This document shows positions 1 through 22,497 of a DNA stretch of 64,000 nt, piece after piece. Under the pieces are notes generated by a model. That model saw nothing but the letters and a program-made list of their open reading frames with translations, had not been told where the DNA came from and ran no database searches. How positions within the stretch are numbered: the first letter of the stretch is position 1; each line of letters begins with the position of its first letter. The stretch comes from an uncultured Lachnospiraceae bacterium (GTDB lineage: Bacteria > Bacillota > Clostridia > Lachnospirales > Lachnospiraceae): positions 1 to 64,000 of the forward strand of contig CATLGV010000021.1 of assembly GCA_949948735.1 (NCBI GenBank), given 5' to 3'. Made by a program: the position numbers and the translations under genes.

Positions 1-81
1 CCCGTAGAAGTTGACGGGCAGAAAATTCAACGACTTACTATCCATTACAAGTTCATAGGGGCACTGGAAACCCTTGAATAA
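1..81 (+). CDS. C-terminal end of a large serine site-specific recombinase (DUF4368-like C-terminus), partial
   Basis: Frame 1 reads PVEVDGQKIQRLTIHYKFIGALETLE* up to TAA at 79-81; resembles the C-terminal tail of ICE/transposon large serine recombinases (…QRI.IYYNFIG…). Confidence 0.7.
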   Translation, partial: PVEVDGQKIQRLTIHYKFIGALETLE

Positions 82-2832
82 TGGATATTTTCTAAGTCAC
101 CTATTCCAACTATCCAACAGACGCAGGCTGTAATGGGAAAGGAAAGGACGCTGGAGCCGCCTTTGCCGCTGCGTGCGCATAACCTGCTGTTTAGCGGCTC
201 CTTCTGCTTTGATGAAAACACGGTTATCGGCAAGGCAATGGACGCGCTGTTTGGAATCAGGCAGACACAGCTGGATATGTTCTTTGGGGCCTCAAAAGGG
301 GCGTTTAGCGGCCTGGTGCTGCTCCCGGTATTCCGGTCGGGTGCGCTCACGGCGGAAGAGCTGTATTTCGGAATCGGCTTCAAGGCGCATACGGTACAGC
401 TGCTGCTGTCAGGAACCTTTTCTTTTTCCTTTTTGGCGGGCGTCCTGTTCCGGGTGCAGTGTGAGCTGAGCAATCAGGGCTTTTGTATAGAAGCGTTTGC
501 CGCCATGGAAAAGCCAAAGCATTTGTTCCACACCTTTTCAATTGGAGATACCTGCCTTGCAATCGGATACCGCGGCGGGTTTCTGTTCCAGATGTTCTGT
601 AATCTGTATATGGGTGAAATCAAGCTGTTTGGCGCGCTGGGGCTGACCGTAACCGGCTCTGTGCCGGTGTTGGATTTGGTGTCGTGCGCATTGACGGACA
701 TCACGCTGCCGGTCTTTGTCAGAAGCATTACCGGAAAGCAGATAAACGGGCTGGAGGCATTTGACTTTATCCAGCTGCTGGGGCTGCCGATGGGCGTAAA
801 CGGCACGTTTCCGATTAAGGCGGATACGCCCCCGGAGGAGACGGCGCGGCTGTTTAACGAGCGCATCTCGGACAAGAGCTTTGCGCTGGAGGCGGACAGG
901 CTCCGGACGGAATCGTTTCAGGGCGGCGTTATTCTCACGGATAAAAAGAGAATGCGCCATTACTATATCCATAAAGACGGAAGACTGCAGCTGCAGGCAC
1001 AGTTTTATTACGCCATGAAAAACATGACGCTGGGAGATTATACGATTGCCAGAGGAATTTTCGCCTGCTGTACCATCCGTCTGTTCCGAAAGGTGGAATT
1101 CCAGGCGCTTCTTTCGCTTTCGGAGACGGACGGCGTCATGGCGTATGCCTGCATCCGGAACCTGAATCTGGGCTTTTTGAAGCTTGAGGGCTCAGGGATG
1201 AACACGCAGGGAAATAGTCCGCTTGCAAATCTGCCGTCAAACAGTCTGCTGCGGCAGTTTGTCAGTCCCGACGAAAAGGGCGCAGTGTTCTATTTGCGGG
1301 CAGGCAGCGCGGAGGTCAGCTTCTATATCGATGCAAAGCTGGAGCTGCTGGGCCTGTTCCGGTTTGCGGCGCGCATCTTGTACGCGAAGGGAATTGTCTG
1401 CATAGACACGCGGTTTTCCCTGGCGGGCTGTATAGAGGTGTCGCTGCACATCGGCGCAAATTACGCAAGCTTTACCGACGCGAATTTTTCCTTTGCGCTG
1501 GTGGTTGACTGTACGGGCCTGGAGAAAAAGCTGCGCGCGGTGCAGGAAAAAATCAACCGGGCGATTGATACGCTCAAGAATAAGGTCAACAGCGCGAAGC
1601 GGCGTCTAACGGAGGCGCAGAATCAGGTCAATGAGCTGTACGGGCAGATACGGCGGCTGGACAGCAATATTCAAAGCTGCAAAAATGCCATTAAGAACGC
1701 CAAGTGGTATAAGAAAGCGTTTGTTGCGATTGCAAAGGGCATTGAGATTGCGGCGTACGAGGTTGCAAAGGCGGCGATTTATGTGGCAATCGGCGTTGCC
1801 AAGGCCGCTCTGGAGGTTGCAAAGCAACTGGTCAATATCGGCGGTATCGTAGGGGAGGGCGTCCTGCGGGCGGTCAACGGAGCGATCAGTGCGACCCTGA
1901 ATTTGTTTTTTGTGCGTTATATCCGCCTTGCAGCCGGTGTGTCGGCGGCGCAGCAGGCGTTCGAGGCGGAAATCGAGTTTGTGGCGCTGGGCAAAACCTA
2001 TCACTATAAGACGCAAATCGGGAAGACGGCAATTGCGGGGAATCCGACAAAGGCACTTTCCGATAACATGAACAACCGCATGAACGATGATTTGAACAAC
2101 ATTGATAAAGGCGCCTTCAAGAGCAACCGCAGCCGCTACAGGCATGAAACCTACACGATTGCGCAGAACAAAGCGCAGCTTCGGGACGGTATGCTGCAGC
2201 TGCAGTCTGGCACCCGCCTGCTGTGCAGGATGCAGGAGAACTACATTGACGGCTGCGGAGAGAGTATGCCGGAATTTGAGGAAATGCAGGTATCTTACGG
2301 GCAGGCGGTAAATGACGTCTCAAGCCTTTTGGCGCTTGCGGACCGCTCCGTTGACTTCGGCGATATGAACGGCGCCGTGGCCATGGCGGAGCAGGAGCTG
2401 GAAAAACAGGATGAAAGGACAAGAGATACGGTATGTATACCGGTAAGACAGGCGATTGCCGACTATAAAGACGCGATGGGGCTTTTAAGCATGGTTGGGA
2501 GCAGCATGGAAAAAGTTCAGGAGCAGAATCGGATGCTGGAGACGCATGCCCAAATTATGAGGCAGAAGGAGGAGGCATACCGCAGGCAGGTCATCGAAAC
2601 CGGAGAGCTTCCGTCTGCGGATATGGTCCGGATATTGAACGAGACGGAGGAAATCATGTACGAGGAGTTTCCGGTTTCCAGAAATAAAAAGGGAATGATT
2701 AATCCGTCCAGAGAGCCGCTGCTTCATCAGTATCTCGACGAGGCGCGAAAGGCATTCGGCGGCGGGCAGACGGAGCATATCCAGAGGATGCGGACAAGGG
2801 CGTCGAAGGGAAGATATGAGAGCAGATTATAA
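82..2832 (+). pseudogene. 3' portion of a large uncharacterised protein (beta-rich N-terminal part, then coiled coil and hydrophobic Ala-rich helices), apparently 5'-truncated by element insertion
   Basis: Frame is open from codon 82 straight after the recombinase stop; the first ATG at 133 has no Shine-Dalgarno; 899 aa ORF in the track. Confidence 0.6.
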
Positions 2833-2852
2833 CATGAAAGGGAGGTATAAGC

Positions 2853-4790
2853 ATGGGAAAGGTCAAAAAAGGCAGCGCCATAGCGGCGCTGTGCAGTATT
2901 CTTGCGGTTGGCGGTGGTCTGACGGTAATGAATCAGAGAGCGCAGGAGCCCACAAGCACCATTTCGGTCTATGAAGCGCAAGCGAATCAAAAGGAATATA
3001 CCGTGATGGTTTATATGATCGGGAGTGATTTGGAAGCGGACGGGGACGAGCAGGCCGGCGCAGGCAGCGCGGATCTCCGGGAAATGGTGGACGTGATGGG
3101 CGGCGGGCACGCGCAGCGGATAAATGAAAGAATGAATCTGATAGTGGAAACCGGTGGCAGCGAGCGCTGGGATATAGATGCGCTGGCGGATATAAAGAAT
3201 GCAAGGTTTTGCATTGATGCGGACGGAATCGGCAGGCTGGAGACGCTGCCGGAGATTGATATGGGAGAGCCGGAGGCGCTCGCTGATTTTATCAATTACG
3301 CCGCCGGGAATTACCCGGCAGAAAATTATGTGCTTGTTTTGTGGAATCACGGAAACGGCCCGGTAGAAGGCTACGGGTACGATATGCTGTACGACGGCGA
3401 CAGTCTGACCTTAATGGAGCTGGATGAGGGAATTGCGGCCTCCGAGGTAACGCGGTTTGCGCTGGTCGGATTTGATGCCTGCCTGATGGGAAATATGGAA
3501 ACCGTCAACGTGATCAGCCGGTATGCGGATTATATGGTCGCCTCGGCGGATCTGGAGGCGCAGGACGGATGGGATTATTCCTGGCTGGAGATTTTTGCGC
3601 AGGAGACGCTTGACGCCGTCGGGATAGGGACGCGGATTGTGGACTGCTATGCGGACTTCTATTCGAAGAAAAAAGGGCAGGCAACGCTCTCCTGTTATGA
3701 TTTGGGCGCTTATCCGGATGTGCGGCAGGAAATGGAGATGTACAATATGCTGGTGTTTGAAAACGCGGACGCCGATTTGTACGAGACGGCATCGCGGATT
3801 CGGACAGGCGTGCAGGGCTTTGGCGATAAGCGGGCTGCGCTGGACAGCCCGGATCTGGTAGATTTTGTCGGATTTTATCAAGGCCTGTCGCCCGAGGCAT
3901 GGGCGGCGGCCGCCCTCGAACCGACGCTGGACGCCCTGGTGCTGTCCTCAAAATCGGTCGGATATGCGCAGGAGCCCTGCGGGATTAGCATTTACGTGCC
4001 CAGCGGCTCCGACTGGATGCTGGAGGAAAGCAATGCAAAATATCAGAAAAGCCTGTTTTTGGAGAGCTATCTGGAGTTTGTCCAGGGATATTCGTCCTAT
4101 ATTTTGACCGGGGATACGTCCGGACCGGACACCGCCGCGGTGGATTATCAGGAGAAAGACCAGACATTTACGATGACAATGGATGCGGAAGAGATGAACC
4201 GGGTTGCGGCGGCGTATCTGATTACCGCGGCGCCGATTGCGGAGCTGCCGGGATGCAGCCTTCTGTTGTCGACGGACAGCGCTTTGGAGATAGGGGCTGA
4301 CGGAAGGCTGGAGGCGGAGCCGGACGAGACCTGTGCGGGTCTGATGGGCGAACCGTTGTGCCTGATTGAGCAGTATAACAGTGAAGCGTATACGGAATAT
4401 CTGTCTCCGCTTCTTTATAATGATGAGCTGTGCCTGGCCAGAATACGGTTTTCCGACGAGAATCCGGATGGTGACGTGCTGGGCATCGTGCCGATGGACA
4501 ACGGCACGACCTCCTCAAAGAGAGAGTACCTGTTGGAGCCGGGGGTGTCGGTAACGCCGCTTTATCCGCTGATTACAGAAGCTGACATGGATGTCGTTTT
4601 GTTGACAGAGGAGAGAGGATTTTACAAGGGCGAATATTACACAGGCAATTCCCTTCAAATTGAGGAGGAATATGACGCTCTTCTGGAAACCGTGGAAATT
4701 CCTTTGCAGGACTGCCTGTTTGGATTTATGATACAGGACACGCGCCAGCAGCTTTGGTTTACGGAGCTGCTGCCGCAAACAGCACAGTGA
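2853..4790 (+). CDS. Clostripain-like (C11 family) cysteine peptidase, secreted or membrane anchored
   Basis: EYTVMVYMIGSDLE…, NYVLVLWNHGNG, ALVGFDACLMGNMETV motifs; N-terminal hydrophobic segment. Confidence 0.85.
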   Translation: MGKVKKGSAIAALCSILAVGGGLTVMNQRAQEPTSTISVYEAQANQKEYTVMVYMIGSDLEADGDEQAGAGSADLREMVDVMGGGHAQRINERMNLIVETGGSERWDIDALADIKNARFCIDADGIGRLETLPEIDMGEPEALADFINYAAGNYPAENYVLVLWNHGNGPVEGYGYDMLYDGDSLTLMELDEGIAASEVTRFALVGFDACLMGNMETVNVISRYADYMVASADLEAQDGWDYSWLEIFAQETLDAVGIGTRIVDCYADFYSKKKGQATLSCYDLGAYPDVRQEMEMYNMLVFENADADLYETASRIRTGVQGFGDKRAALDSPDLVDFVGFYQGLSPEAWAAAALEPTLDALVLSSKSVGYAQEPCGISIYVPSGSDWMLEESNAKYQKSLFLESYLEFVQGYSSYILTGDTSGPDTAAVDYQEKDQTFTMTMDAEEMNRVAAAYLITAAPIAELPGCSLLLSTDSALEIGADGRLEAEPDETCAGLMGEPLCLIEQYNSEAYTEYLSPLLYNDELCLARIRFSDENPDGDVLGIVPMDNGTTSSKREYLLEPGVSVTPLYPLITEADMDVVLLTEERGFYKGEYYTGNSLQIEEEYDALLETVEIPLQDCLFGFMIQDTRQQLWFTELLPQTAQ

Positions 4791-4798
4791 CAAAATGC

Positions 4799-4834
4799 TT
4801 TAAGAGACGCTTCGGGAAATGAAGCGTCCCTTAA
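4799..4834. terminator. Stem-loop, possible bidirectional terminator between convergent genes
   Basis: TAAGAGACGCTTC-gggaaat-GAAGCGTCCCTTA. Confidence 0.5.
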
Positions 4835-4860
4835 AACATGCCTTTTCGCTGCAAAAGGAG

Positions 4861-5079
4861 CTATTGCTCACTGTCGTGCCGGCTGCTGACATGCATGACA
4901 ATATCCTCAATGCCGCAATGAAACAATTCGCAGTAACGGTCGATGGTGCTTAAGGTAAAATTATGGTCGTTTTTCAGGCGGGATATTTCCGCAGGATTGA
5001 TATCGTATTTGTATTCCAAATCGTAGGTGCTGATACCGCGCCGCGCAAGCATATCCCAGAAGGGTGATAATTTCATCAT
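4861..5079 (-). CDS. Small XRE/HTH-type transcriptional regulator
   Basis: MMKLSPFWDMLARRGISTYDLEYKYDINPAEISRLKNDHNFTLSTIDRYCELFHCGIEDIV; HTH_26-like; SD ggaggt. Confidence 0.75.
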   Translation of the reverse strand: MMKLSPFWDMLARRGISTYDLEYKYDINPAEISRLKNDHNFTLSTIDRYCELFHCGIEDIVMHVSSRHDSEQ

Positions 5080-5177
5080 ATGTATACCTCCCAGATACAG
5101 ATTAATAAGGTTCACGGTGCGAAGCGGAGACAGGTCCGCTTACCGATAAGTTTATAATACTTACAATCGTAGTGCAA

Positions 5178-5247
5178 CGTAACTTACATCCGTGAAATTT
5201 GTCGAATAATGTTGAAAAACAACGAAAACACACAGGTGTAAGTTACG
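5178..5247. promoter_or_regulatory. Inverted repeat CGTAACTTACA … TGTAAGTTACG in the divergent intergenic region (candidate operator)
   Basis: Perfect 11-bp arms at 5178-5188 and 5237-5247, between the XRE regulator (-) and the endolysin (+). Confidence 0.5.
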
Positions 5248-5326
5248 CGGCCGCCGAAGCGGCGGTAAGATAAAAGCACTCACAAATTCTGCAGATACAA
5301 TGAGAAAACAATTCAGGAGGTGCACA

Positions 5327-6442
5327 ATGGAAATACTACAGAGCATTTTAGAAAAAAATCCCTGCTATCGGGCGGGGAAAAAGATTAAGGTTGGCGGACT
5401 GATGCTGCACAGCGTCGGATGCCCGCAGCCCTCCGCGGAAGTGTTTGTCAGAAAGTGGAATCAGGCGGAGGCCTCAAGAGCATGCGTGCATGCCTTTATC
5501 GACGGGAACACGGGAAGGGTATATCAGACACTGCCGTGGGATCATCGGGCATGGCACTGCGGATCCGGCACGAACGGTTCCGGGAACAATACGCACATCG
5601 GGGTTGAGATGTGCGAGCCGGCGTGTATCAAGTATGCCGGAGGAGCCGGCTTTACCTGCTTTGATACGGAGACCGCGCTGGCGGTGGTAAGACGCACATA
5701 TGAGGCCGCGGTAGAGCTGTTTGCGTTTCTCTGCCGCAAATACGAGCTTGATCCGCTGGCGGACGGCGTGATTATCAGCCATAAAGAAGGACATGAGCGG
5801 AAAATCGCCTCCGGGCATGCGGATCCGGAGCATTTGTGGAGCGGCCTTGGCTGTGGCTATACCATGCAGGGCTTTCGCGAAGCAGTGAAGGCGGCCATGG
5901 AAGGGCAGCCCGCGCAGGAGGCACAGCAGAAGGCGGCCGAAGCACAGGGAGCTTCCGAAGAGCCGGCAAAAACGCAGGAGAACTGCCGGCAGCCCGCGGC
6001 CTCCGCAGAGATGCATATTTCCGACCGCGGCGTGGAGCTGGTTGCGGGCTTTGAGGGCTGCCGGCTGGAGGCGTATAAATGTCCCGCCGGCGTCTGGACA
6101 ATCGGATACGGCCATACGGCGGGCGTCAATCCGGGGGACAGGCTTGGCTCACAGGAGGAGGCCAGGGCGCTGCTGAAAAAGGATTTGGAGCAATACGGCG
6201 GTTATGTCAATACCTGCGTGAGAAAGGGATTGATTTCGTTTGCGCTCACACAGAACCAGTTTGACGCCCTGACCAGCTTTTGCTATAACTGCGGAAACGG
6301 AAACCTGCAGAAGCTGGTATCGGGCAGGGATGCCGCAGTAATTGCGGAAAAGCTGCCCGCGTACAACAAGGGAGGCGGAAAGGTACTGCCGGGGCTTGTG
6401 CGGCGCAGGGAGGCGGAAAGGGCGCTGTTCTTAACGCCATAG
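5327..6442 (+). CDS. Endolysin-like fusion: N-acetylmuramoyl-L-alanine amidase (Amidase_2/PGRP) plus GH24 lysozyme
   Basis: N-terminal GLMLHSVG…HAFID…IGVEMCEP…; C-terminal ISDRGVELVAGFEGCRLEAYKCPAGVWTIGYGHT…; no signal peptide evident. Confidence 0.85.
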   Translation: MEILQSILEKNPCYRAGKKIKVGGLMLHSVGCPQPSAEVFVRKWNQAEASRACVHAFIDGNTGRVYQTLPWDHRAWHCGSGTNGSGNNTHIGVEMCEPACIKYAGGAGFTCFDTETALAVVRRTYEAAVELFAFLCRKYELDPLADGVIISHKEGHERKIASGHADPEHLWSGLGCGYTMQGFREAVKAAMEGQPAQEAQQKAAEAQGASEEPAKTQENCRQPAASAEMHISDRGVELVAGFEGCRLEAYKCPAGVWTIGYGHTAGVNPGDRLGSQEEARALLKKDLEQYGGYVNTCVRKGLISFALTQNQFDALTSFCYNCGNGNLQKLVSGRDAAVIAEKLPAYNKGGGKVLPGLVRRREAERALFLTP

Positions 6443-6560
6443 GCGCTTTACAGCCGCAAAAAGGATACTTTGCAGCCGCAAAAAGGGCGCTGCTCCTGAC
6501 GCTGCAGCGTGTTTGCGACAGGCGCGGCGGCGGATGCACAGAAACAGGAGGAGAATGGAG

Positions 6561-7508
6561 ATGAACGAGGACGGGCGGTATGGGGGAGAAGAGGATTTTG
6601 AGAGCGGCTATGATGAAGGCGGCTATGAAGACGGTTATGAAAATGATTATGAAAATGATTATGAAGACGACCGTGAAGACGGCTATAAGGGGCGCTTTGA
6701 AAACAGCTACGAGGACAGTGATTTTATCCCGCTCGATGATTTGGTCTATGCGCCGCTTCATGCGCTGGCCAAGTCCAACCGGCAGCTTCGCGCGCAGGTT
6801 GTGGATGCAATAAGAAGCATGGGAACCCTGTGTCAAAACGGATCGGAGGAGACCTTACGGCTGAACAATATCAATATTTCATACGACCAGGTACGGCCGG
6901 AGGCCGAGGAGGGCTGCAGTGTGGACAACCTGCAGCTCCAGGTGCCCCTGCTTTCCATTGTGCCGGTCACAAACCTCAATGTGGAAAAGGCGGAGATTGA
7001 TTTTTCCACGGAGGTCAAAGCGCAGCAGGAGGAAAACGGGCCGTGCCGCATTCTTGCCCGAATCTGCGCGCCCCAGCAGCGGGACAGCGATTTCCTGCCG
7101 CGCGTGACCTATAAGCTTCAAATCGAATCGCTGGCTGCGACAGAGGGCGTTATGCGGCTGACGGATATGCTCAGCGCCAGTCCGGTTGCAAAGAAGACCG
7201 ATACGACGCCTGTCGCGGTGGACGGGAATCCGGGCTCGCAGGAGCAGAAGCATACGAGGCTGGAGGTAGCAAAAATGCGTGCGAAGGTAAAGAAGCTAAA
7301 GCAGCTTTATCAGAAAATTTCCGATATGATCGCGGAGCAGGAGCGGCTGCAGCAGATCAGCCGGGAAGCCTTTGAAGAAAATACCTACGACTTTGACAGG
7401 GATCGGTATTTGATGGCTCAGGCGAATATTACAAACCGCATCATGGAATACCAGGAGAAAATAATGGACAAGGAGATTGCCTTCGGCCTTGACAGGGATT
7501 ATGAGTAG
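6561..7508 (+). CDS. DUF2589-like protein with acidic Tyr/Gly-rich low-complexity N-terminus
   Basis: LRLNNINISYDQV…LQLQVPLLSIVPVTNLNVEKAEIDFSTEVKA; shares VPLL(S/A)IVP(V/I).NL.V core with the 7850-8965 product. Confidence 0.65.
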   Translation: MNEDGRYGGEEDFESGYDEGGYEDGYENDYENDYEDDREDGYKGRFENSYEDSDFIPLDDLVYAPLHALAKSNRQLRAQVVDAIRSMGTLCQNGSEETLRLNNINISYDQVRPEAEEGCSVDNLQLQVPLLSIVPVTNLNVEKAEIDFSTEVKAQQEENGPCRILARICAPQQRDSDFLPRVTYKLQIESLAATEGVMRLTDMLSASPVAKKTDTTPVAVDGNPGSQEQKHTRLEVAKMRAKVKKLKQLYQKISDMIAEQERLQQISREAFEENTYDFDRDRYLMAQANITNRIMEYQEKIMDKEIAFGLDRDYE

Positions 7509-7566
7509 GGAGGACATAGATTATGCCCGCGCCCGAAGCCGCAGGGCATCCGGTATGGAGGAAGCT

Positions 7567-7812
7567 ATGACAGAGCAGGAGATTCGCAAAAGCGCGCAGG
7601 GACTGGCGGCGGAAATGAATTTCCGCCTGCTGTGCGAAATCAGGGGAGCGGATATTCCCTTTGAAACCATCCTGTGGGTGGACAGCGTTACGGTGACGGA
7701 TATCAGGTATCCCAGGCCGCGTCGCGGCATATTGTCCCGCCTTGGCAAAGCGCTTGGGCGGCTGGTAAAGCGGCTGAAACAAAAATACAGGGGCGTAAGA
7801 CGCAGGATTTAA
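7567..7812 (+). CDS. Small uncharacterised basic protein in the DUF2589 cluster
   Basis: ORF with SD ggagg before ATG 7567; between the two DUF2589-like genes. Confidence 0.55.
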   Translation: MTEQEIRKSAQGLAAEMNFRLLCEIRGADIPFETILWVDSVTVTDIRYPRPRRGILSRLGKALGRLVKRLKQKYRGVRRRI

Positions 7813-7849
7813 TGATTAAATCGAAAGCGGCGCAGAAACGGAGGAAGAT

Positions 7850-8965
7850 ATGGCAATAGCAGAACAATTTGCAGGATTACAGATGGATCAGCTGATAGGA
7901 GGGCCGCTGCGGGCGGCGGCGGATGCCAATGCGCATCTGGCAGGCTCTACGGCTGAATTTATTAACAAAGTAGGCTTTGACGCAAACGGAAGGGTAAATA
8001 TGGTATCGTTCGGCTATCAGGGGCGCAGCGTGAACGAGGACGGAACGAGCAATCTTGAGGAGATGAAGGTGGATGTTCCTCTGCTTGCGATTGTGCCGAT
8101 ACCCAATCTGCAGGTCGACGAGGTCAACATTCTTTTTGATATGGAGGTCAAGGAGAGCGTAAAATCGGAGAGCAGCACAGATATGAGCGCATCCGGAACG
8201 GCGGCGTTAAACCTTGGGCTTTTTAAGGTCAGCGTATCCGGAAGCGTCAGCGCGCACAGTACAAATACCCGGAGCACAGACAATTCGGCGAAATATCATG
8301 TGGATGTGCGCGCGGCAAACCACGGTACGCCGGAGGGGCTGGCGCGGGTGCTGGACATGATGGCGGCAAATGTGTCGCCGATGCTGATCGGCAGCACGGT
8401 AAAAGATGCAAACGGGAGAGACTTGCCGGAGGCGTCCAGAATCCGCGCCGAGCGCTTAAAAGCGCTGCGGCAGGAGATTGGAGAGATTGAAAACCGTTTG
8501 CAGACGGCGCGCAGGGGACTTGACAGTAATGTGCAGCTCTTAAAGAAAATAGCCTCCTCACAGCAGAATCTGTATCAGGGAAATATGATGAAAAAAATGA
8601 ATGCGCTTGACAAGGAGGACGACGACACGGCGGCGCAGTGCAGCCGTGTGATGGATGAGATCAATCAAAGCTGGAACGCGTTCCAGAATCAGGCGGCTGA
8701 TTTTATCAAGCTGCTTGCGGACAGCGGGGAGGAGCCGGCGGACGTTTCGGATATGTTTTCTTTAAAAGCGCCGGATGCCGAAAATACCCGAACAGCCGGT
8801 TACGGAGAGCAGGAGAACTATTACAAGGCGCTTCTTGGCGCGCAGAAGGGCGCGCTCGCGTCACAGCGCACTGTAAGCCGGATAGAGGAGGATCTGTTCA
8901 ACAAGAAATCCGAGTACAGCGATACCGCGGCGGGAGCGCCGTCCGCACAGGCGGACAGCCAGTAA
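7850..8965 (+). CDS. DUF2589-like protein with C-terminal coiled coil
   Basis: LIGGPLRAAADANAHLAGSTAEFINKVGF…VDVPLLAIVPIPNLQVDEVNILFDMEVK. Confidence 0.75.
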   Translation: MAIAEQFAGLQMDQLIGGPLRAAADANAHLAGSTAEFINKVGFDANGRVNMVSFGYQGRSVNEDGTSNLEEMKVDVPLLAIVPIPNLQVDEVNILFDMEVKESVKSESSTDMSASGTAALNLGLFKVSVSGSVSAHSTNTRSTDNSAKYHVDVRAANHGTPEGLARVLDMMAANVSPMLIGSTVKDANGRDLPEASRIRAERLKALRQEIGEIENRLQTARRGLDSNVQLLKKIASSQQNLYQGNMMKKMNALDKEDDDTAAQCSRVMDEINQSWNAFQNQAADFIKLLADSGEEPADVSDMFSLKAPDAENTRTAGYGEQENYYKALLGAQKGALASQRTVSRIEEDLFNKKSEYSDTAAGAPSAQADSQ

Positions 8966-8990
8966 AGGAGCATGACGGCGGAGGGATGAG

Positions 8991-9263
8991 ATGGACAGAA
9001 ACGAGAAAACCGTATTGGCGGACATCTGCTATGTGAAGCTGGTTCCCGTCGGAGGCATCAATCCCAATAATCCTCTTTCGGATGAGGCGCGCAACGCGCA
9101 GGCGGCGCTGCTCAACCGCTGCCTCAACGACTATCCCAGAGGGATTATCATCGGGAAGGACGTCGCGGTGGGCAGATACCGGCTTGGGGAGCATGATTTG
9201 ACGATGGAGAAAATTACATATCATGTGGGTTTTACGAGAAGGCCTGCATGGGAACAGGAATAA
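8991..9263 (+). CDS. Small uncharacterised protein
   Basis: 90-aa ORF in operon context, no recognised domain. Confidence 0.55.
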   Translation: MDRNEKTVLADICYVKLVPVGGINPNNPLSDEARNAQAALLNRCLNDYPRGIIIGKDVAVGRYRLGEHDLTMEKITYHVGFTRRPAWEQE

Positions 9264-9300
9264 GGCGCCTTATTCCCGTTACGGAAAGGACAGGGAGATT

Positions 9301-9621
9301 ATGACAGTAGAAGCATATAAAGAAGAAAAAAAGCTGATTTTAAAAATTGCGGGGCGGGTCGACAACACGACGGCCCCTCTGCTGGAAAAGGAGCTTCGGG
9401 ACAGGCTGGATTCGGATACGGCGGAGATTCTGCTGGACTTTTTCCTGCTGGACTATATCTCGTCGGCCGGGCTGAGAGTGCTGCTGACAATGCAGAAGCT
9501 GATGAACAAAAGAAACGGGAAAATGATCATTAAAAACGCAAACGCCATCGTGACGGAGACCTTTAAGATTACCGGATTTTTAAATATTCTTACGGTAGAG
9601 CAGGGCGGCCGGCCGCAGTGA
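9301..9621 (+). CDS. STAS domain anti-sigma factor antagonist (RsbV/SpoIIAA-like)
   Basis: EILLDFFLLDYISSAGLRVLL (conserved phosphoserine motif). Confidence 0.85.
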   Translation: MTVEAYKEEKKLILKIAGRVDNTTAPLLEKELRDRLDSDTAEILLDFFLLDYISSAGLRVLLTMQKLMNKRNGKMIIKNANAIVTETFKITGFLNILTVEQGGRPQ

Positions 9622-9649
9622 AAGTACTTTTAGAAAAGGTGGACGACGT

Positions 9650-12580
9650 ATGCATTGTCATAAAAAAAAATTGATTTTTGCCGGGTGTGCGGTGCTCCTG
9701 CTGCTGATGCTCTGGCACAGCCGCGGACTGCCGCGCCGGCCCCCGCTGCAGCCTGTGCACGCTTTTGAGTCCGTCAGCGAGGTGAGCATGGGCGTTCGGG
9801 GGAATACCTATGTGATAGACCGGGGGAAGAAGCGTCTGACCGTGGTGAATGAGAAACGCGAGGCGGTGCGGGTCATAGAGGGCGGCAGCAGGCAGGGCGC
9901 GTTCTATTATGCCTGCCGGGTATGCGATGATTCGTCGGGAAATATCTATGTCGCGGACATCGTATACGGGGACAGGGGGAACCGGATTGAACAGGAGAGA
10001 ATCATAAAGCTTGCCGGAGATAAGCGGACGGTGGTCTTTGCGGAGGATTATACGGAGTCGGCGAATCCGCCGCTGCAGTACGGCAGGATTCTGGAGCTGC
10101 AGACGTACCGGGACCAGGTCTGCTTCGTGAAGGTCGGGCAGGAAAAGCTGCTGTTGTACGGCCTCGACCTGCTGGGGAATGCACAGCTTCTCTCGGAGAC
10201 GGATTGCCCGTATGCGCTGAGCGATGCATCGTATGACGCTTCGACGGGAACCTTTGTGATCACGACAAGGCAGGGGGATATTTATGTCCGCTCCGGGAAG
10301 GATGCGCAGTGGCGCAGAATCCGGCAGGAGCAGCCGCAAAATATGCCGTGGGATGTCGTGGCGCGCAGCGGGGAGGTTTACTACACGGAGCTGCTGCGAA
10401 GAAGCATTATGCATTTTTCGATTGGCAGCGAGCAGGTGCAGGAAACGCTGTACCGGCAACAGGAGGCGCTCTACCGGCTGGATGTGTCTTCTGACGGCAG
10501 CAGGCTTGCGGCGACGGATTACAATGCGTTTTTTTATCTGTACGCCCGATACAACAAAGGCTCCGTCTCGGAATACTGTACGGCAGTGGAAAACCGCGAT
10601 TACCCGAAAGCCGCCCTTCTATGGGGCGCGGGACTTCTGGTATCGGCGGTACTGGCAGCAGCGGCTGTGCGTGCCGGTATCCGCCGGCTGCGGCAGATTC
10701 GGGATAAAAGCAATATATTCCGGGTAATGCTGGTGGTGGGCGCGGCAGTTTCGGTTTCGCTGACGGTCTCGTATTCCGCGCTGACGCAGATGATGGCAGG
10801 CCAGAGTGACATGCTGATACAGAATATGCTGCTGTTTGCGGAGCTTTTGCGGGAAGAGATTGATACGGAGGCGCTAAAGTCGGTAAGCGGCTGCAACGAT
10901 TACCACAGTGACGCCTACATGCGGGTGAAAGCCCCTCTGGACCGGATGATTGACGAGTCCTACGACCGGGAAATCTACTATTATTATCTGATTTATGACG
11001 CGGACGGGGATTACATCCGCTGCCTGATGGATTATGAGGATACCACCCCGTGCGGATATCCGATTTACGTGTACGGGGACAACGATTATACAAGGGCGCT
11101 GACACAGAATACGGAGATAGTGGTTGCCGATGATACAAGCTCCTACGGGGCATGGGTGTTTACGCTGCTGCCGGTGACGGACGACAAAGGGCAGGTCATT
11201 GCGGAGCTGGAGGTTGGTACAAGCCTCGACCGTATAACCGCGGAGAAAAAAGAAATCCTCTTTGAGCTTGTCTGTACAATATTTAACAGTGCGGCGGTCG
11301 TCGTGATGCTCCTGCTGGAGGTGCTGTTTCTGATCTCTTTTCTGGAGCGGCGCGCGAAAATCCCCGGACAGCAGCGCGGCCTTGCGGATCAGATACCGCT
11401 GCGCAGTATCGTATTTCTTTCTTATATGACAGATTCCATGCAGGACGCGTTTATCGTGCTGCTCTGCGACAGGCTCTATGACGGCGGACTGCCGGTTTCA
11501 AGAGAGGTTGCGGCCGCGCTGCCGATGTCGCTGCAGCTTCTTCTGGCGGCGGTCTTTTCCCTGGCGGGCGGCGGCCTTGCGGAAAGGCTCGGCGTCAAAA
11601 AGGTACTGTGCGCAGGCTTTATCGCGCAGACGGCAGGCTTTGTAATATGTCTGGCCTCCGGCGGTTATATGGGGCTTCTTATCGGAAAAGCGTGGATTGG
11701 AATCGGAATGGGCATGATTTATGTGAGCGCCAATACGGCGGCGTCGATGAGCGGCGCCGGACGGATGCAGGCAGCCTTTGCAGAGGTTGCGGCAGGCGTG
11801 CTGTCCGGGGTTACGATTGGCGTCGGCGTCGGTTCGCTTTTGCTCTCGGCGGGCTCTTATAAGCTGGTTTATCTGGCGGGCGCGGCGCTGCTTGCGCCGG
11901 GGCTTGCGATGGTGCTGCCTGCAAAGAACGCCGTTCCCCGGAGGGAGAAGCGCAGACGGCGTGCGGCGGAAACGGCGCGCTTCCTGTTTGACAGAAGGAT
12001 TATGGGCTTTTTTCTGCTGCTTTTGACGCCGTTTATGATCGCGCTCTCCTACCGGGAATATTTTTTCCCGCTGTATATGGAGCGCCTGGGTGTGGACGAG
12101 GTTCAAATCGGCCGGATGTATCTGGCCTGCGGGCTGGCGGCGCTTTATGCGGGGCCATATCTTTCCGGGCGGCTTCTGCGGACGCTGGGGGCAAAGAAAA
12201 GCGTTATGCTGGCAAGCCTCGCAATGGCAGCAGGCATGGGGATTTTTGTCCTGTTTCCGGGTGCGGCAAGCGTGACGGGAGGTCTGGTCGCGCTGTCGTT
12301 TACCATTTCGTTTGCTTATACCTGTCAGTATACATATTTTGAGCAGCTGCCGGCGTGCAGGGCGTTTGGAGAAGGAAGCGCCATGGGGATTTATTCGATG
12401 TTTGAGAGCCTGGGGCAGACGCTTGGCCCAGTCGTGTACGGTATGGCGCTGATGCGGGGGCAGCGCACGGGAATCGCGGTTTTGTCGGCGGCAATGGCGG
12501 GGCTGCTCGTCCTGTTTGCCCTGACCGCAATGGGGAAGAAGACGGGAAGGCGGCGGAAAAGAAAAGAGGAGTGTATATGA
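9650..12580 (+). CDS. Fusion: beta-propeller-like periplasmic/extracellular region, Cache-like sensor, 12-TM MFS transporter
   Basis: 976 aa; N-term NTYVIDRGKKRLTVVNEK…SSGNIYVADI repeats, TM, sensor region (LREEIDTEALKSVSG…), MFS (FLSYMTDSMQDAFIVLL… to C-term). Confidence 0.7.
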   Translation: MHCHKKKLIFAGCAVLLLLMLWHSRGLPRRPPLQPVHAFESVSEVSMGVRGNTYVIDRGKKRLTVVNEKREAVRVIEGGSRQGAFYYACRVCDDSSGNIYVADIVYGDRGNRIEQERIIKLAGDKRTVVFAEDYTESANPPLQYGRILELQTYRDQVCFVKVGQEKLLLYGLDLLGNAQLLSETDCPYALSDASYDASTGTFVITTRQGDIYVRSGKDAQWRRIRQEQPQNMPWDVVARSGEVYYTELLRRSIMHFSIGSEQVQETLYRQQEALYRLDVSSDGSRLAATDYNAFFYLYARYNKGSVSEYCTAVENRDYPKAALLWGAGLLVSAVLAAAAVRAGIRRLRQIRDKSNIFRVMLVVGAAVSVSLTVSYSALTQMMAGQSDMLIQNMLLFAELLREEIDTEALKSVSGCNDYHSDAYMRVKAPLDRMIDESYDREIYYYYLIYDADGDYIRCLMDYEDTTPCGYPIYVYGDNDYTRALTQNTEIVVADDTSSYGAWVFTLLPVTDDKGQVIAELEVGTSLDRITAEKKEILFELVCTIFNSAAVVVMLLLEVLFLISFLERRAKIPGQQRGLADQIPLRSIVFLSYMTDSMQDAFIVLLCDRLYDGGLPVSREVAAALPMSLQLLLAAVFSLAGGGLAERLGVKKVLCAGFIAQTAGFVICLASGGYMGLLIGKAWIGIGMGMIYVSANTAASMSGAGRMQAAFAEVAAGVLSGVTIGVGVGSLLLSAGSYKLVYLAGAALLAPGLAMVLPAKNAVPRREKRRRRAAETARFLFDRRIMGFFLLLLTPFMIALSYREYFFPLYMERLGVDEVQIGRMYLACGLAALYAGPYLSGRLLRTLGAKKSVMLASLAMAAGMGIFVLFPGAASVTGGLVALSFTISFAYTCQYTYFEQLPACRAFGEGSAMGIYSMFESLGQTLGPVVYGMALMRGQRTGIAVLSAAMAGLLVLFALTAMGKKTGRRRKRKEECI

Positions 12581-13131
12581 TAAGATATTCAGAAATCGTA
12601 CAGGGAGACATCCGGCAGGTGATTGGGCTGTACGAGCAGTATTTAAACAGCGGGGCATATATCCGCAGCGATATGCTGGAGGCGTTCTACGCCGGGGGAT
12701 ATATCGGGTACAAGGCGGAGGATGGCGGGAAAATTGTCGGAATGGTCTCCGGCAGAAGAGGAATTGCTTTTACCTATCCGCATCCGCAGCTGGAGAAGGA
12801 GCTGTACGGACATACGGGCGGCAGAAGCGTGTACACCGTGGATTCGCTGCTGGTGATTCCGGGCTGCCGCCGTCAGGGGATTGCGCGGAATCTGATATAT
12901 TATATACGCAGGCGGATGAAGGAGATAAAGACGGAGCTTGCGCTGGCGGAAATCTGGGTATATCCGGATGATGCCATACCGGCTGCCGCGGCCTTTTCGT
13001 ACCTGGGAAGAAGGACCTTCCGCCGCGTGATTCCAGGATTTTACAAGGATAACGCCGTGTACAAAATCGGCTGCCCGGTCTGTGGGGAAAGCTGCCGCTG
13101 CAAGGCAGCGGTGGAAATGTACTTATTATAA
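12577..13131 (+). CDS. GNAT family N-acetyltransferase
   Basis: VDSLLVIPGCRRQGIARNLIYYIRRRMKE…; ATGA overlap with upstream gene. Confidence 0.75.
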   Translation: MIRYSEIVQGDIRQVIGLYEQYLNSGAYIRSDMLEAFYAGGYIGYKAEDGGKIVGMVSGRRGIAFTYPHPQLEKELYGHTGGRSVYTVDSLLVIPGCRRQGIARNLIYYIRRRMKEIKTELALAEIWVYPDDAIPAAAAFSYLGRRTFRRVIPGFYKDNAVYKIGCPVCGESCRCKAAVEMYLL

Positions 13132-13191
13132 CGCAGCGCGCAGGAACAGCCTGTGGAAGGCCTGCTCCTGCGGGAAAAGGACGGTGAAGAA

Positions 13192-15252
13192 ATGAAGCAT
13201 GGACTGAGAGCGCGAATCAGTGTTGAGATAAGCTGCATGGTAATGCTGATGGGAATGGTGCTGATTGCACTTAGCTGTTATGCGTTTTATGACGCGTATA
13301 TCAGTTTTTACAGCGAGAAGGCGCAGGACATTGTGCGGATGCTGGCCCGGGAGGTGGATGCCGACGCGCTGAGCGGCTATCTGGAGAGCGGCAAAACGGA
13401 TGCGGCATATGAGCGGATGCTGGCGCATTTCAATAATGTAAAGGAGAACGCCGGCGAGCTGGGGTATCTCTATCTGTTTGTGCCGTATGAGGATCATTTT
13501 GTTTATATCCTTGACGCATATACGGCGGCGGACGATAAGCGCAATATCGCCCGTCTGGGCGATCAGTTCCGGTACGGGGAGATGGAGTACCGGTATCTTC
13601 TTGCGGATATCCGGGATAAAAAGCCCTCCACGGAGGTTATATTCGGGAAGGATGAGGGCTATGGGAAAACCGTATCGGCCTGGGCACCCGTGCTTAACGC
13701 GGAGGGGGAGCTTGCGGCGATGGTGGAGGCGGATTACGTGCTGGGGAACCTGCAGCGCAGAATCAACGCTTATATGATGGGAATCTCCGCATTCCTGCTG
13801 GTGGGCATGGCGGTGATTCTTTACGCGGTTCTCCATGTCCTCAAGAAAAACGTGACGACGCCGCTGGAAAGGCTGGCCGGATATGTCAATTCCTATGAGA
13901 ACGGGGAGGAACAGCCAGGGCCGTATCCGTTCTGCAAAAAGGACGAAATAAAGCTGCTGTCCGATTCGTTTCAGGGTATGATTGCGCGGACAAAGGACTA
14001 TATCGCGCGGATTGAACGGGCCGCTGCGGAAAAGGAGCGTATCGGGGCGGAGCTTTCCGTTGCGGCGCACATACAGGCAAACATGCTGCCCTGCGTCTTC
14101 CCTCCCTTTCCCGACAGGAGGGAGTTTACACTCTTTGCAACGATGAGGCCCGCAAAGGAGGTCGGGGGAGATTTCTACGATTTCTTTCTGATCGACGAGG
14201 ACAGGCTGGTGCTGGTGATTGCCGACGTATCGGGAAAGGGCGTCCCGGCGGCGCTGTTTATGGTCATTGCAAAGACCCTGATCAAGAATCACGCGCAGGG
14301 CGGCCAGACACCGGAAAAAATTTTTGAAAACGTCAATGCACAGCTATGCGAGAACAATGAGGAGGGAATGTTTGTGACGGCCTGGCTGGGCATCTTAAGC
14401 CTGTCGACAGGGAGTCTATCCTATGTCAACGCGGGACACAACATGCCGTTAATCAAGCGGCGCGGCGGGACGTATGAGTATCTCGAGACGGAGCCGGATT
14501 TTGTACTTGCCGGAATGGAAAATCAGCAGTACCGGCGCAGAGAGCTGACGCTGGAGCCGGGGGATATGCTGTATGTGTATACGGACGGCGCGCCGGAGGC
14601 GGTAAACGGAAAAAAGCAGCTCTACGGGGATGAGCGGCTCAGATACGCGCTGAACCGGAATAAGGAGGAGCCGCCGGAGGAGCTTCTGCCCGACGTCAGA
14701 GCGGATATTGACCGCTTTGCGGGAGAGGAGCCGCAGTTTGACGATATTACCATGCTGTGCCTTCGATATAACGGCGAATCCGAATCCGCGGATTCGCATG
14801 AGCCTGAAAAGCCGCAGGCGGCCGCGCCGCAAACAAGCGCGCTGCGGGTTCGGGCGGAGGACATGCAGCTTGAGACCGTGCTGGCGTTTGTCGACGCGCA
14901 GCTTGAAACGGCCGGCTGTCCGAGGCGTACGGCGGTGCAGCTTGCGATTGCCGTGGAGGAGCTTTTTGTCAATATTGCGCATTACGCATACGGCGGCGGG
15001 GTGGGAGAGGCTGTCATATCGATGGAGCTGCTTCCGGGCCAGAGCGGGGTATCGGTTACGCTCGAGGACGGCGGGATTGCGTATAATCCGCTGGAAAGGG
15101 CAGATCCGGATATTGATTTGGACGCCGGACAGAGGGCGGTCGGCGGACTTGGTATTTATATGGTCAAAAAGAGTATGGATGAAATGACGTATGAATACAG
15201 GAATCGGAAGAACCGGTTGACAATACGCAAGTACTGGACGGCAGAGCGGTAA
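13192..15252 (+). CDS. Sensor-HAMP-PP2C (SpoIIE/RsbU-type) phosphatase with C-terminal RsbW-like HATPase
   Basis: GGDFYDFFLIDEDRLVLVIADVSGKGVPAALFM…; C-term EELFVNIAHYAYGGG…EDGGIAYNPL…GGLGIYMVKK. Confidence 0.85.
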   Translation: MKHGLRARISVEISCMVMLMGMVLIALSCYAFYDAYISFYSEKAQDIVRMLAREVDADALSGYLESGKTDAAYERMLAHFNNVKENAGELGYLYLFVPYEDHFVYILDAYTAADDKRNIARLGDQFRYGEMEYRYLLADIRDKKPSTEVIFGKDEGYGKTVSAWAPVLNAEGELAAMVEADYVLGNLQRRINAYMMGISAFLLVGMAVILYAVLHVLKKNVTTPLERLAGYVNSYENGEEQPGPYPFCKKDEIKLLSDSFQGMIARTKDYIARIERAAAEKERIGAELSVAAHIQANMLPCVFPPFPDRREFTLFATMRPAKEVGGDFYDFFLIDEDRLVLVIADVSGKGVPAALFMVIAKTLIKNHAQGGQTPEKIFENVNAQLCENNEEGMFVTAWLGILSLSTGSLSYVNAGHNMPLIKRRGGTYEYLETEPDFVLAGMENQQYRRRELTLEPGDMLYVYTDGAPEAVNGKKQLYGDERLRYALNRNKEEPPEELLPDVRADIDRFAGEEPQFDDITMLCLRYNGESESADSHEPEKPQAAAPQTSALRVRAEDMQLETVLAFVDAQLETAGCPRRTAVQLAIAVEELFVNIAHYAYGGGVGEAVISMELLPGQSGVSVTLEDGGIAYNPLERADPDIDLDAGQRAVGGLGIYMVKKSMDEMTYEYRNRKNRLTIRKYWTAER

Positions 15253-21159: not shown

Positions 21160-21285
21160 GTCAATAAAAAACCATAAAAAATACAAAATCACAGCATAAA
21201 TTTGACAAAAAATTATGAGGACGCCCTTTATACTAGTAGTCACCGGACAAATCCGGCGATTAGCAGAAAAGAGGAGTTGGTCATA

Positions 21286-22497
21286 ATGATATTAAAATTA
21301 AAGGAAAATAATAAAATAGATGGATACCTGCTTACCGGATACAGCCAGAAGAAGCTTCACTGCCTGTCCGAAACCTACGAGGAGCTTGCCAGACTATACC
21401 GGAGTATTCCGCAGGAGGAAGCTGCCTGTGAGAACAGAAGGGACATGCTTTACCGCAGGCAGCTCCAGGAGGCAAAGCAGATATTTGCCAACCATCTTGA
21501 CGAAATTTCGGACGCTTTTGCGGAGGTGGCGGACACGGTGGTGCATGCAAGTGTTCCGGTACAGCACAAGCGCCGGGCGCTTATTCAGTATCTGAAAAAG
21601 CAGGGAATCCTTGTCAAGGAGCTGCTGTTTCTCGAGGGAGGCAGCGGGCTGCTGCCCGAGGAGGGACTTTGCAGCAGAATCAGCATCCAGGCGAGGGCAA
21701 TCGGCAGAAGGACCGTGCCGGTATCGACGCTTAGCGGACTTTTGTCGGTGTTTTTTGGCCGCAGGCTGATACCCTCCCTTGACAGTGCGACGCTGTTAGA
21801 CAGGAATTACGACGTCTTTATTTTTGAGGACGAGCCGCAGTTTTGCGTTATGAGCGCTGTGTCCCGCGCGGTTAAGGAGAATGAAAAAATCTCGGGTGAC
21901 AATTTTTCCTTCGAGGAATATAATCAGAATCAGGCAATAATGATGATTGCGGACGGCATGGGCAGCGGAGAACAGGCGTGCAGGGACAGCCAGTCGGTAA
22001 TAGAATTTATGGAGAAGTTCCTGGAGGCCGGATTCAGCAAGGAAAAGGCGTTTTCCATGGTCAACAGCGCCATTGCGTCGCAGACGCAGTGCTGCAATAT
22101 GACGACGCTGGACGTCTGCGCAATCAATCTCCTGAACGGAGATGCGGAATTTCTCAAGGCAGGGGCTGCGCCAAGCTATCGCAAGCGGGGCGGCTATGTC
22201 GAGGAGATTTCCGTGGATACGCTGCCGCTTGGCAGCATTGACGAGCTGTGTCCCATGGTGCAGACGGTAAAGCTTGTTGATTCGGACATGCTGATTCTGT
22301 TGTCGGACGGCGTTGCGGACGCGCTCGAGGGAGCGGGCGGCAGACGGCTGCGGGATATTATCGCAAGAACGGATACCGCAAATCCCAAGGAGATGGCCAA
22401 TCATCTGCTGCAGTGCGCGATAAACTGCCAGGGCGGCCATATTATGGACGATATGACGGTGCTGGCATGCTCTGTCCGGTACAATCGCAGAGGTTAG
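21286..22497 (+). CDS. spoIIE: SpoIIE-like PP2C phosphatase lacking the N-terminal membrane domain
   Basis: Phosphatase motifs AIMMIADGMGSGEQA…, LLSDGVAD; position between divIC and tilS; SD GAGGAG before ATG 21286. Confidence 0.7.
   Translation: MILKLKENNKIDGYLLTGYSQKKLHCLSETYEELARLYRSIPQEEAACENRRDMLYRRQLQEAKQIFANHLDEISDAFAEVADTVVHASVPVQHKRRALIQYLKKQGILVKELLFLEGGSGLLPEEGLCSRISIQARAIGRRTVPVSTLSGLLSVFFGRRLIPSLDSATLLDRNYDVFIFEDEPQFCVMSAVSRAVKENEKISGDNFSFEEYNQNQAIMMIADGMGSGEQACRDSQSVIEFMEKFLEAGFSKEKAFSMVNSAIASQTQCCNMTTLDVCAINLLNGDAEFLKAGAAPSYRKRGGYVEEISVDTLPLGSIDELCPMVQTVKLVDSDMLILLSDGVADALEGAGGRRLRDIIARTDTANPKEMANHLLQCAINCQGGHIMDDMTVLACSVRYNRRG

Follow-up and report, generated by a model that had tools for sequence, protein, structure and literature searches.

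The window, as we call the whole 64,000-nucleotide stretch of Lachnospiraceae DNA analysed here, carries near its start a gene cluster in which a sequence-only reading had recognized a C11 peptidase, a lysin, a pair of DUF2589 proteins and STAS, MFS, GNAT and PP2C-HATPase proteins, all confirmed by domain searches. The centre of this cluster is, on comparative grounds, a conserved unit, to which we refer as the module. Its downstream neighbours in the window are genes for a CCA-adding enzyme, TilS, FtsH and a DeaD-type protein. Genes are on the forward strand unless stated otherwise.

Positions 1-78 of the window are the end of a mobile element that also opens contig C16. The 899-residue protein of the sequence-only reading follows as a β-rich and coiled-coil open reading frame (133..2832), which is present but turns out to be a truncated remnant, the 3' part of a broken gene that encodes about 1070-1080 residues in two relatives and whose first ~163 codons lie on a separate contig (G000:C27:828-1304); to judge from these pieces, it was cut by the mobile element. 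Next is the C11 (clostripain family) peptidase (2853..4790, Peptidase_C11 E-value 6.5e-38). Both proteins had been proposed as members of the system, yet the first lies near the module in only 1 of 34 loci and the second in 2 of 38, neither exceeding chance adjacency among the Lachnospiraceae loci. We therefore reject the 899-residue protein, which is lineage-specific, as a core component, and by the same kind of comparison the peptidase is classed as a lineage-specific neighbour.

The C11 gene and the lysin are separated by a Cro/C1-type HTH gene (4861..5115, reverse strand, HTH_26 E-value 8.8e-13) that runs divergently from the lysin and encodes what is probably a local regulator in the window lineage. 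Upstream of the lysin, sequence comparison revealed an inverted repeat, CGTAACTTACA...TGTAAGTTACG (5178..5247), whose arms are separated by 36 nucleotides and which is conserved in the two nearest relatives; it is a candidate operator or RNA stem. Rfam gave only sub-threshold chance matches in the window leader.

The module begins with the lysin (5327..6442), whose start we set at 5327 because of an AGGAGG site and the starts of its homologues. Numbered along the 380-residue frame that starts at 5300, it comprises an Amidase_2 domain (residues 31-177, E-value 1.5e-18) and a Phage_lysozyme/GH24 domain (residues 250-373, E-value 1.9e-38). The GH24 residues E252, C261 and T267 and the amidase residues H37, E103, H161 and D175 show little or no variation among 37-38 relatives, and this two-domain, endolysin-type protein has no signal peptide. 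Domains, catalytic residues and synteny mark it as a core member and, at the level of sequence, as a peptidoglycan hydrolase of the endolysin type with intact active sites.

The two DUF2589 proteins, both core, exceed the PF11655 gathering cut-off of 23 bits. DUF2589a (6561..7508, its start at 6555 or 6561 being uncertain) scores 56.6 bits (E-value 5.1e-15) and has an omega of about 0.10; DUF2589b (7850..8965), which has a C-terminal coiled coil, scores 136.8 bits (E-value 1.0e-39). An AlphaFold model of DUF2589b (alignment A1 of 43 sequences, pLDDT 61.8) is confident for the C-terminal helices alone and unreliable for the N-terminal DUF2589 domain, and a structural search with it gave no meaningful matches. 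DUF2589 occurs in bacteria and has also been reported from Archaeoglobus; the literature we searched describes no function for it.

Each DUF2589 gene is followed by one for a small protein, neither of which has any family match. The first, s99 (7567..7812, start uncertain within 7501-7567), was assigned by BLAST to a family that is core in Lachnospiraceae. Its C-terminus is cationic, with a mean net charge of +7.3 over the last 38 residues; since this charge is strong but amphipathicity barely exceeds that of shuffled sequences (median p 0.19), we left the notion of s99 as a holin as a weak idea. The second, s90 (8991..9263, 90 residues), is core by synteny and homologues and the best conserved of the small members, with the motif NPNNP...LNRCL...YHVGF.RKP. 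Structure prediction, which had been suggested for the small proteins, yielded a confident fold for s90 (pLDDT 89) but no significant structural match: Foldseek returned nothing significant from viral models or from PDB, where Alba proteins ranked first (E-value 0.065, TM below 0.5), and a PDB profile search gave no match.

Regulatory genes close the operon. The first encodes a STAS protein resembling anti-sigma-factor antagonists (9301..9621; STAS E-value 8.1e-15, TIGR00377 7.1e-20, above cut-off), the last a membrane sensor with a SpoIIE-type PP2C domain (E-value 1e-50) and HATPase_c_2 (E-value 1.6e-19; 13153..15252). With all three elements present, this last protein is, by domain content, the hub of a partner switch. 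The RsbU-RsbV-RsbW and SiaA systems likewise combine a PP2C phosphatase, a HATPase_c_2 kinase and a STAS antagonist; here, however, a single sensor protein carries both the phosphatase and the kinase. The two genes in between are accessory: a lineage-specific fusion of a sensor with an MFS transporter (9650..12580, 976 residues, MFS_1 E-value 1.2e-26) and a GNAT acetyltransferase (12571..13131) found by domain search. The fusion had been counted as a member of the system, but in sister loci its place is taken by a GNAT-like gene (F5) or by f17 and EamA genes. F5, whose length is unrelated to that of the window GNAT, lies near the module in 30 of 47 sister loci.

We collected 56 Lachnospiraceae loci, each count below referring to those whose flanks permit scoring. 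The recurring order is lysin, DUF2589a, s99, DUF2589b, s90, STAS and SpoIIE/HATPase phosphatase. The lysin adjoins DUF2589 in 46 of 50 loci; DUF2589a is found in 52/54, s99 in 48/54, s90 in 50/52 and STAS in 43/50, and PP2C lies close to the module in 41/46. From lysin to PP2C, this neighbourhood is far above chance expectation, and omega values of 0.06-0.29 across the genes tested indicate purifying selection. The sequence-only reading had named unconserved gene pairs as evidence against itself; what we found is ordered co-occurrence over dozens of genomes. No transmembrane segment was predicted in the core proteins (including 126 DUF2589, 41 s90 and 40 s99 sequences). Small transmembrane reading frames lie near just 18 of 69 loci and share no family, leaving no recognizable holin in the operon; no spanin was found at the module. 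Neither a conserved ATPase, sorting or membrane component nor tail, sheath or spike genes accompany the core. A known anti-phage defence system was rejected, since no PADLOC model matched the lysin, DUF2589, s90, s99, STAS or PP2C.

In 24 related loci an inverted-repeat switch precedes the operon. Its near-consensus promoter is directed away from the lysin in 24/24, as read from consensus assemblies, which for metagenome-assembled genomes give the majority orientation only. TTGACA lies at a fixed distance from the left arm (22 exact, two with one mismatch), and inversion is predicted to yield TTGACA-N17-TATTAT/TATAAT directed at the lysin. Shuffled sequences contained no repeat pairs of this type, and a tyrosine recombinase adjoins the switch in 17 of 19 recombinase-bearing loci. 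Judged by its architecture, the switch consists of inverted repeats around a promoter, inverton-like and in the OFF orientation. Invertons of gut bacteria share the repeats around a promoter and the adjacent tyrosine recombinase, and their orientation sets expression of the downstream operon (PMC8748976, PMC11892184); here, by contrast, the -35 element lies in the putatively invertible segment and the -10 element in a repeat arm, and the predicted target is a cell-wall hydrolase operon, for which we found no invertible promoter in the literature searched. Upstream of the window's lysin the sister-type repeats are absent, and we rejected an inverton in the window's own genus, where three matches are single sites.

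Phage-like wall hydrolases linked to a DUF2589 pair are found in dozens of gut Firmicutes and several other phyla. Lacrimispora amygdalina PI-S10-A1B (L078) is a carrier available in culture. A cell-wall hydrolase is present in 6 of 7 DUF2589 contexts outside Bacillota, so the association recurs in other phyla, with enzymes of the GH24, GH108, N-acetylmuramidase and SLT families. A GH24 lysozyme gene overlaps DUF2589a in Burkholderia, an N-acetylmuramidase accompanies DUF2589 pairs in Deltaproteobacteria and a pair on a faecal contig, and SLT enzymes accompany DUF2589 on two Vibrio plasmids. An IMG/VR contig (L101) keeps the order lysin, DUF2589a, DUF2589b, s90 exactly, with a non-homologous GH108 enzyme as lysin. 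Homologues of s90 adjoin DUF2589b there, in Deltaproteobacteria and in two Vibrio. No hydrolase lies near DUF2589 at loci L089, L091-L093, L100, L130, L058 and L071. The absence of phage structural genes held up: no capsid, tail or packaging genes lie beside the module, and among the cluster proteins the lysin alone has a clear PHROGs match (lysis). Apart from the IMG/VR contig, DUF2589 occurs in one of 50,697 records of phage collections, an unverified 4-kb scaffold; with DUF2589 nearly absent there, we rejected a phage origin of DUF2589 and s90.

That many relatives carry the module behind an OFF-set switch suggests a costly programme of self-lysis or release in a few cells. Our leading reading, to which we give somewhat less than an even chance, regards the core as a domesticated lytic module, distinct from a phage cassette, that serves tightly gated lysis or release by a minority of cells. 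Weighing against it are the DUF2589 loci with no hydrolase nearby, the missing holin and spanin and the lack of a conserved cargo. The release or lysis role already proposed from the sequence gains support from the OFF-set promoter of the sister loci, but not from the window, which is without the switch. Conserved order, active sites, selection, lack of transmembrane segments, the partner switch at the operon end and the invertible sister promoter are read directly from sequence; we infer lysis and cargo, as well as what DUF2589 and s90 do. The endolysin-type hydrolase would be made together with DUF2589a/b and the two small proteins from an operon presumably silent in most cells. A minority of cells would express it. 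Sister species would do so by flipping the promoter and the window lineage through a different regulator, for example the HTH protein, and STAS/PP2C would transmit a signal from the envelope or on nutrients. The producer's wall would then be opened by its own lysin, freeing cytoplasmic DUF2589 assemblies and, in some species, cargo encoded nearby. The enzyme would have to cross the membrane without a recognizable holin, a step for which s99, with its cationic tail, is at most a candidate.

Protein release through lysis of a subpopulation is a known strategy. Lytic type 10 secretion (Yersinia entomophaga YenLC, PMC10847048) shares an endolysin-type enzyme, tight control, an expected subpopulation and, as proposed here, the freeing of cytoplasmic protein; it has a holin/endolysin/spanin cassette, whereas our module has no recognizable holin or spanin, has an invariant DUF2589 pair with s90, is under predicted partner-switch and, in sister loci, recombinase control and has no fixed toxin partner. 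TcdE-type toxin release (PMC3369941, PMC6200909) also reuses a phage-derived lysis gene off the phage in Firmicutes, but TcdE is itself a holin beside an endolysin remnant, whereas here the endolysin is intact and the holin missing. No single cargo is conserved across loci, and toxin-likeness of candidates is mostly weak, as for one resembling CNF1 (L062; Pfam E-value 0.06, PDB 0.49). A motif-based idea of cargo family f22 as a nucleotidyl-cyclase toxin was dropped, Pfam and PDB profiles giving no support.

The interchange of several hydrolase families beside the DUF2589 pair would also fit an envelope-building role, in which DUF2589a/b and s90 would assemble on the wall or span it, with peptidoglycan opened locally by the hydrolase and the resulting surface structure varied by the inverton. 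Specialized lysins likewise open the wall for pili or secretion machines, gut invertons often adjoin cell-surface genes (PMC11892184), and one operon (L034) contains a jacalin-like lectin. The core proteins, however, lack transmembrane segments, the lysin is of endolysin type without signal peptide, and conservation with the core does not extend to any ATPase, sorting or membrane component; we consider this reading unlikely. Slightly less probable still is antibacterial delivery, with the hydrolase as effector on a DUF2589/s90 particle that would be released or secreted and aimed at other cells: exchangeable hydrolases look like effector modules and effector-like neighbours exist (an eCIS_core protein at L038 and, at L128, genes of the Exo_endo_phos nuclease and Peptidase_C70-like kinds that follow the same type of recombinase switch), but particle genes of the tail, sheath or spike kind are absent and no immunity protein tracks the lysin type; s90 is kept whatever the lysin and is therefore not a lysin-specific immunity protein. 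The SpoIIE phosphatase and STAS at the operon end recall a sporulation-like or stress programme such as mother-cell lysis, which is improbable given like modules in non-sporulating Vibrio and Burkholderia and a random flip-switch unusual for obligate development. That the genes adjoin by chance or are what is left of a decaying phage, as the phage-like lysin domains might suggest, is already contradicted, as far as sequences tell, by order conserved over dozens of species, purifying selection and the rarity of DUF2589 in phage collections, and we give it next to no weight.

Returning to minority lysis or release, we hold with more reserve its broader form, that DUF2589a/b, s90 and an interchangeable hydrolase constitute an undescribed system across phyla that works without a classical holin and that in Lachnospiraceae a phase-variable recombinase switch would keep off in nearly all cells. 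The tie of DUF2589 to cell-wall hydrolases, together with an OFF switch in gut bacteria, would give DUF2589 a first testable function, and may point to a new means of self-lysis among gut commensals, or of protein release into the gut.

We searched one genome per species for relatives of DUF2589b, the second of two PF11655 (DUF2589) paralogues at the locus, and obtained 56 loci, nearly all from Lachnospiraceae MAGs and two from cultured isolates (Lacrimispora amygdalina and Lachnospiraceae bacterium COE1). We assessed gene co-occurrence by ORF clustering and tblastn-based counts, taking as denominators the loci whose flanks allow counting. By the tblastn-based counts, the first paralogue, DUF2589a, is present in 52 of 54 loci, the small proteins s99 and s90 in 48/54 and 50/52, the lysin (5327..6442, plus strand) in 46/50, the STAS protein in 43/50 and the SpoIIE/HATPase phosphatase (PP2C) in 41/46. 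The sequence-only reading had suggested a candidate system in one cluster, to be checked by conservation of its gene pairs across genomes; for these genes, found at most countable loci, that conservation was seen. A GNAT-like family (F5) occurs in 30/47 loci and a tyrosine recombinase in 19/41 by the same counts.

The lysin is a single two-domain protein, replaced in some species by two adjacent genes for the amidase and GH24 parts. Its GH24 residues Glu252, Cys261 and Thr267, arranged E-x8-(D/C)-x5-T, and its amidase residues His37, Glu103, His161 and Asp175, all of which we take to be active-site positions, are kept in 36–38 of the 37–38 sequences with a residue there. For the genes compared, dN/dS against the nearest relatives is 0.06–0.29. 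A simple hydropathy scan found no transmembrane segment in 126 DUF2589, 41 s90, 40 s99 and 31 STAS proteins.

Seven contexts with DUF2589 pairs came from outside Bacillota; in these the type of hydrolase varies and its presence is near-constant. A GH24 lysozyme gene overlaps DUF2589a in Burkholderia stagnalis; DUF2589a, DUF2589b and s90 adjoin an SLT transglycosylase on plasmids of Vibrio tubiashii (divergently) and Vibrio sp. 16, and have an N-acetylmuramidase 2 kb downstream on a plasmid of Deltaproteobacterium Smac51. A faecal contig (L102) carries two DUF2589 genes with a PG-binding N-acetylmuramidase, and an IMG/VR contig (L101) has a GH108 lysin, DUF2589a, DUF2589b and s90 exactly in the Lachnospiraceae order; adjoining the latter module on the opposite strand are provirus genes (475-8355, minus strand) that include a P2-type coat protein gene (PF18628/PF25513). 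Across these phyla, 18 positions of s90 are invariant. The association with a hydrolase is thus strong, yet not universal, because a Streptomyces plasmid has two DUF2589 genes and no hydrolase, and none lies near the Bacillota DUF2589 loci L091–L093 (genomes G004, G025 and G027), L089 (G023) and L130 (G246).

All genes listed in the sequence-only reading are present in the window, with Pfam support for C11, Amidase_2 plus Phage_lysozyme, two DUF2589, STAS, MFS, SpoIIE plus HATPase_c_2, and GNAT; s99 and s90 match no family in Pfam, PHROGs or NCBIfam. The reported absence of phage structural genes also stands for the window, where clear PHROGs matches are limited to the lysin. Both DUF2589 copies of the genome are at this locus, and the relatives found are Lachnospiraceae. 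Housekeeping genes follow downstream (CCA-adding enzyme, from translation, TilS, FtsH and DeaD); a second SpoIIE-type phosphatase gene (21202-22497) precedes tilS and ftsH.

Two proposed members dropped out: by tblastn-based counts, the C11 peptidase (2853..4790, plus strand) was seen in 2/38 loci and the 899-aa protein (133..2832, plus strand) in 1/34, its gene being broken and not core. Relatives of the latter protein have about 1070–1080 residues, and a search of 60 related genomes found homologues in 2, the window's genome apart. The window opens contig C21 of a draft genome of 3.2 Mb; the missing first ~163 codons sit on contig C27, where they run into non-homologous sequence, and window bases 1-78 are identical to the beginning of contig C16. 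A multi-copy mobile element (window 1-132; C27 1-828; C16 1-78), a repeat at which the contig breaks, has therefore split a ~1070-aa gene. The break is probably recent, since the 3' part retains similarity to relatives at low omega (0.09–0.13). The last ORF of the element resembles a recombinase C-terminus.

By their domains, the STAS and SpoIIE/HATPase_c_2 proteins make up a textbook partner-switch set. The genes between them vary: a sensor-MFS (9650..12580) and a GNAT (12571..13131) gene in the window, F5 in many others, or DUF3574-like and EamA genes.

In 24 sister loci, related loci with the module, we found perfect inverted repeats, ATACGATAT ... ATATCGTAT, spaced about 110–470 bp, between recombinase and lysin or immediately 5' of the lysin operon; Markov-shuffled loci gave zero such pairs. 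TTGACA is present as its reverse complement, TGTCAA, eleven bases inward of the left arm (exact at 22 loci, with one mismatch at 2); with a -10-like hexamer in that arm (TATTTT/TATTAT, once TATTAA) and a 17-bp spacer it gives a predicted sigma-70-type promoter directed away from the lysin. Facing the lysin, the right arm carries TATTAT or TATAAT, in no case with a -35, so that inversion would form TTGACA-N17-TATTAT/TATAAT towards the operon. All 24 loci are in this OFF orientation. The repeats are present at 17 of 19 recombinase-bearing loci, counting L031 with one mismatch. The same recombinase-plus-switch type, likewise OFF, precedes a different operon at L128 (G463:C1, 12005-12193), which suggests a transferable phase-variation cassette. 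The operon there comprises an Exo_endo_phos nuclease gene, a paralogous pair (271/305 aa) and a Peptidase_C70-like gene, with no lysin.

The window lineage is without the switch; it has a divergent Cro/C1-type regulator and an inverted repeat (window 5178-5247; L087 2158-2220; L082 5263-5326) whose arms, GTAACTTACA/TGTAAGTTAC, are conserved and whose interior has diverged. This repeat may serve as an operator or belong to a leader RNA; each copy seems to hold its own small hairpin. In other species, a LytTR regulator lies 5' of the lysin.

In some species, extra genes stand beside the lysin: the f22 family, DUF6765, a jacalin-like lectin and a weakly CNF1-like protein. The f22 genes (about 310–350 aa; L045 6982-8040, L047 6879-7934, L079 6987-8009, L028 6499-7434, L071 11534-12562), inside or next to the lysin–DUF2589 operon, share the motifs KPH, GDYD and QHG.x.NY. 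At L038, a 1236-aa eCIS_core (PF13699) protein (1450-5160) is encoded two genes 5' of the module, immediately ahead of the recombinase gene. These accessory genes are suggestive of released cargo; no single one is conserved across loci.

The open-licence PubMed Central papers searched mention DUF2589 once, incidentally, and PF11655 not at all, and we found there neither the repeat sequence nor any DUF2589 inverton. They also give no description of DUF2589a, DUF2589b, s90 and an interchangeable hydrolase as a unit, although one may exist elsewhere. The apparent novelty lies in this unit; the control elements, inverton and partner switch, are of known kinds.

Read from sequence, the module is a fixed set that includes an intact cell-wall hydrolase of cytoplasmic type; its control is tight and varied, and a switch would store it silent. 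We tentatively propose that it serves lysis and release, a model to which we give somewhat less than an even chance; its main rival is that the hydrolase opens the wall locally for a surface structure. A known parallel to the proposed lysis is the lytic type 10 secretion that frees Tc toxin from specialised Yersinia entomophaga cells (PMC10847048). We do not place the module in that class, because the holin that defines it was sought by hydropathy scan and not found. Under the lysis and release model, expression of the module would be costly and restricted to a minority of cells, in which the hydrolase would open the wall and a DUF2589/s90 assembly or cargo would then be set free.
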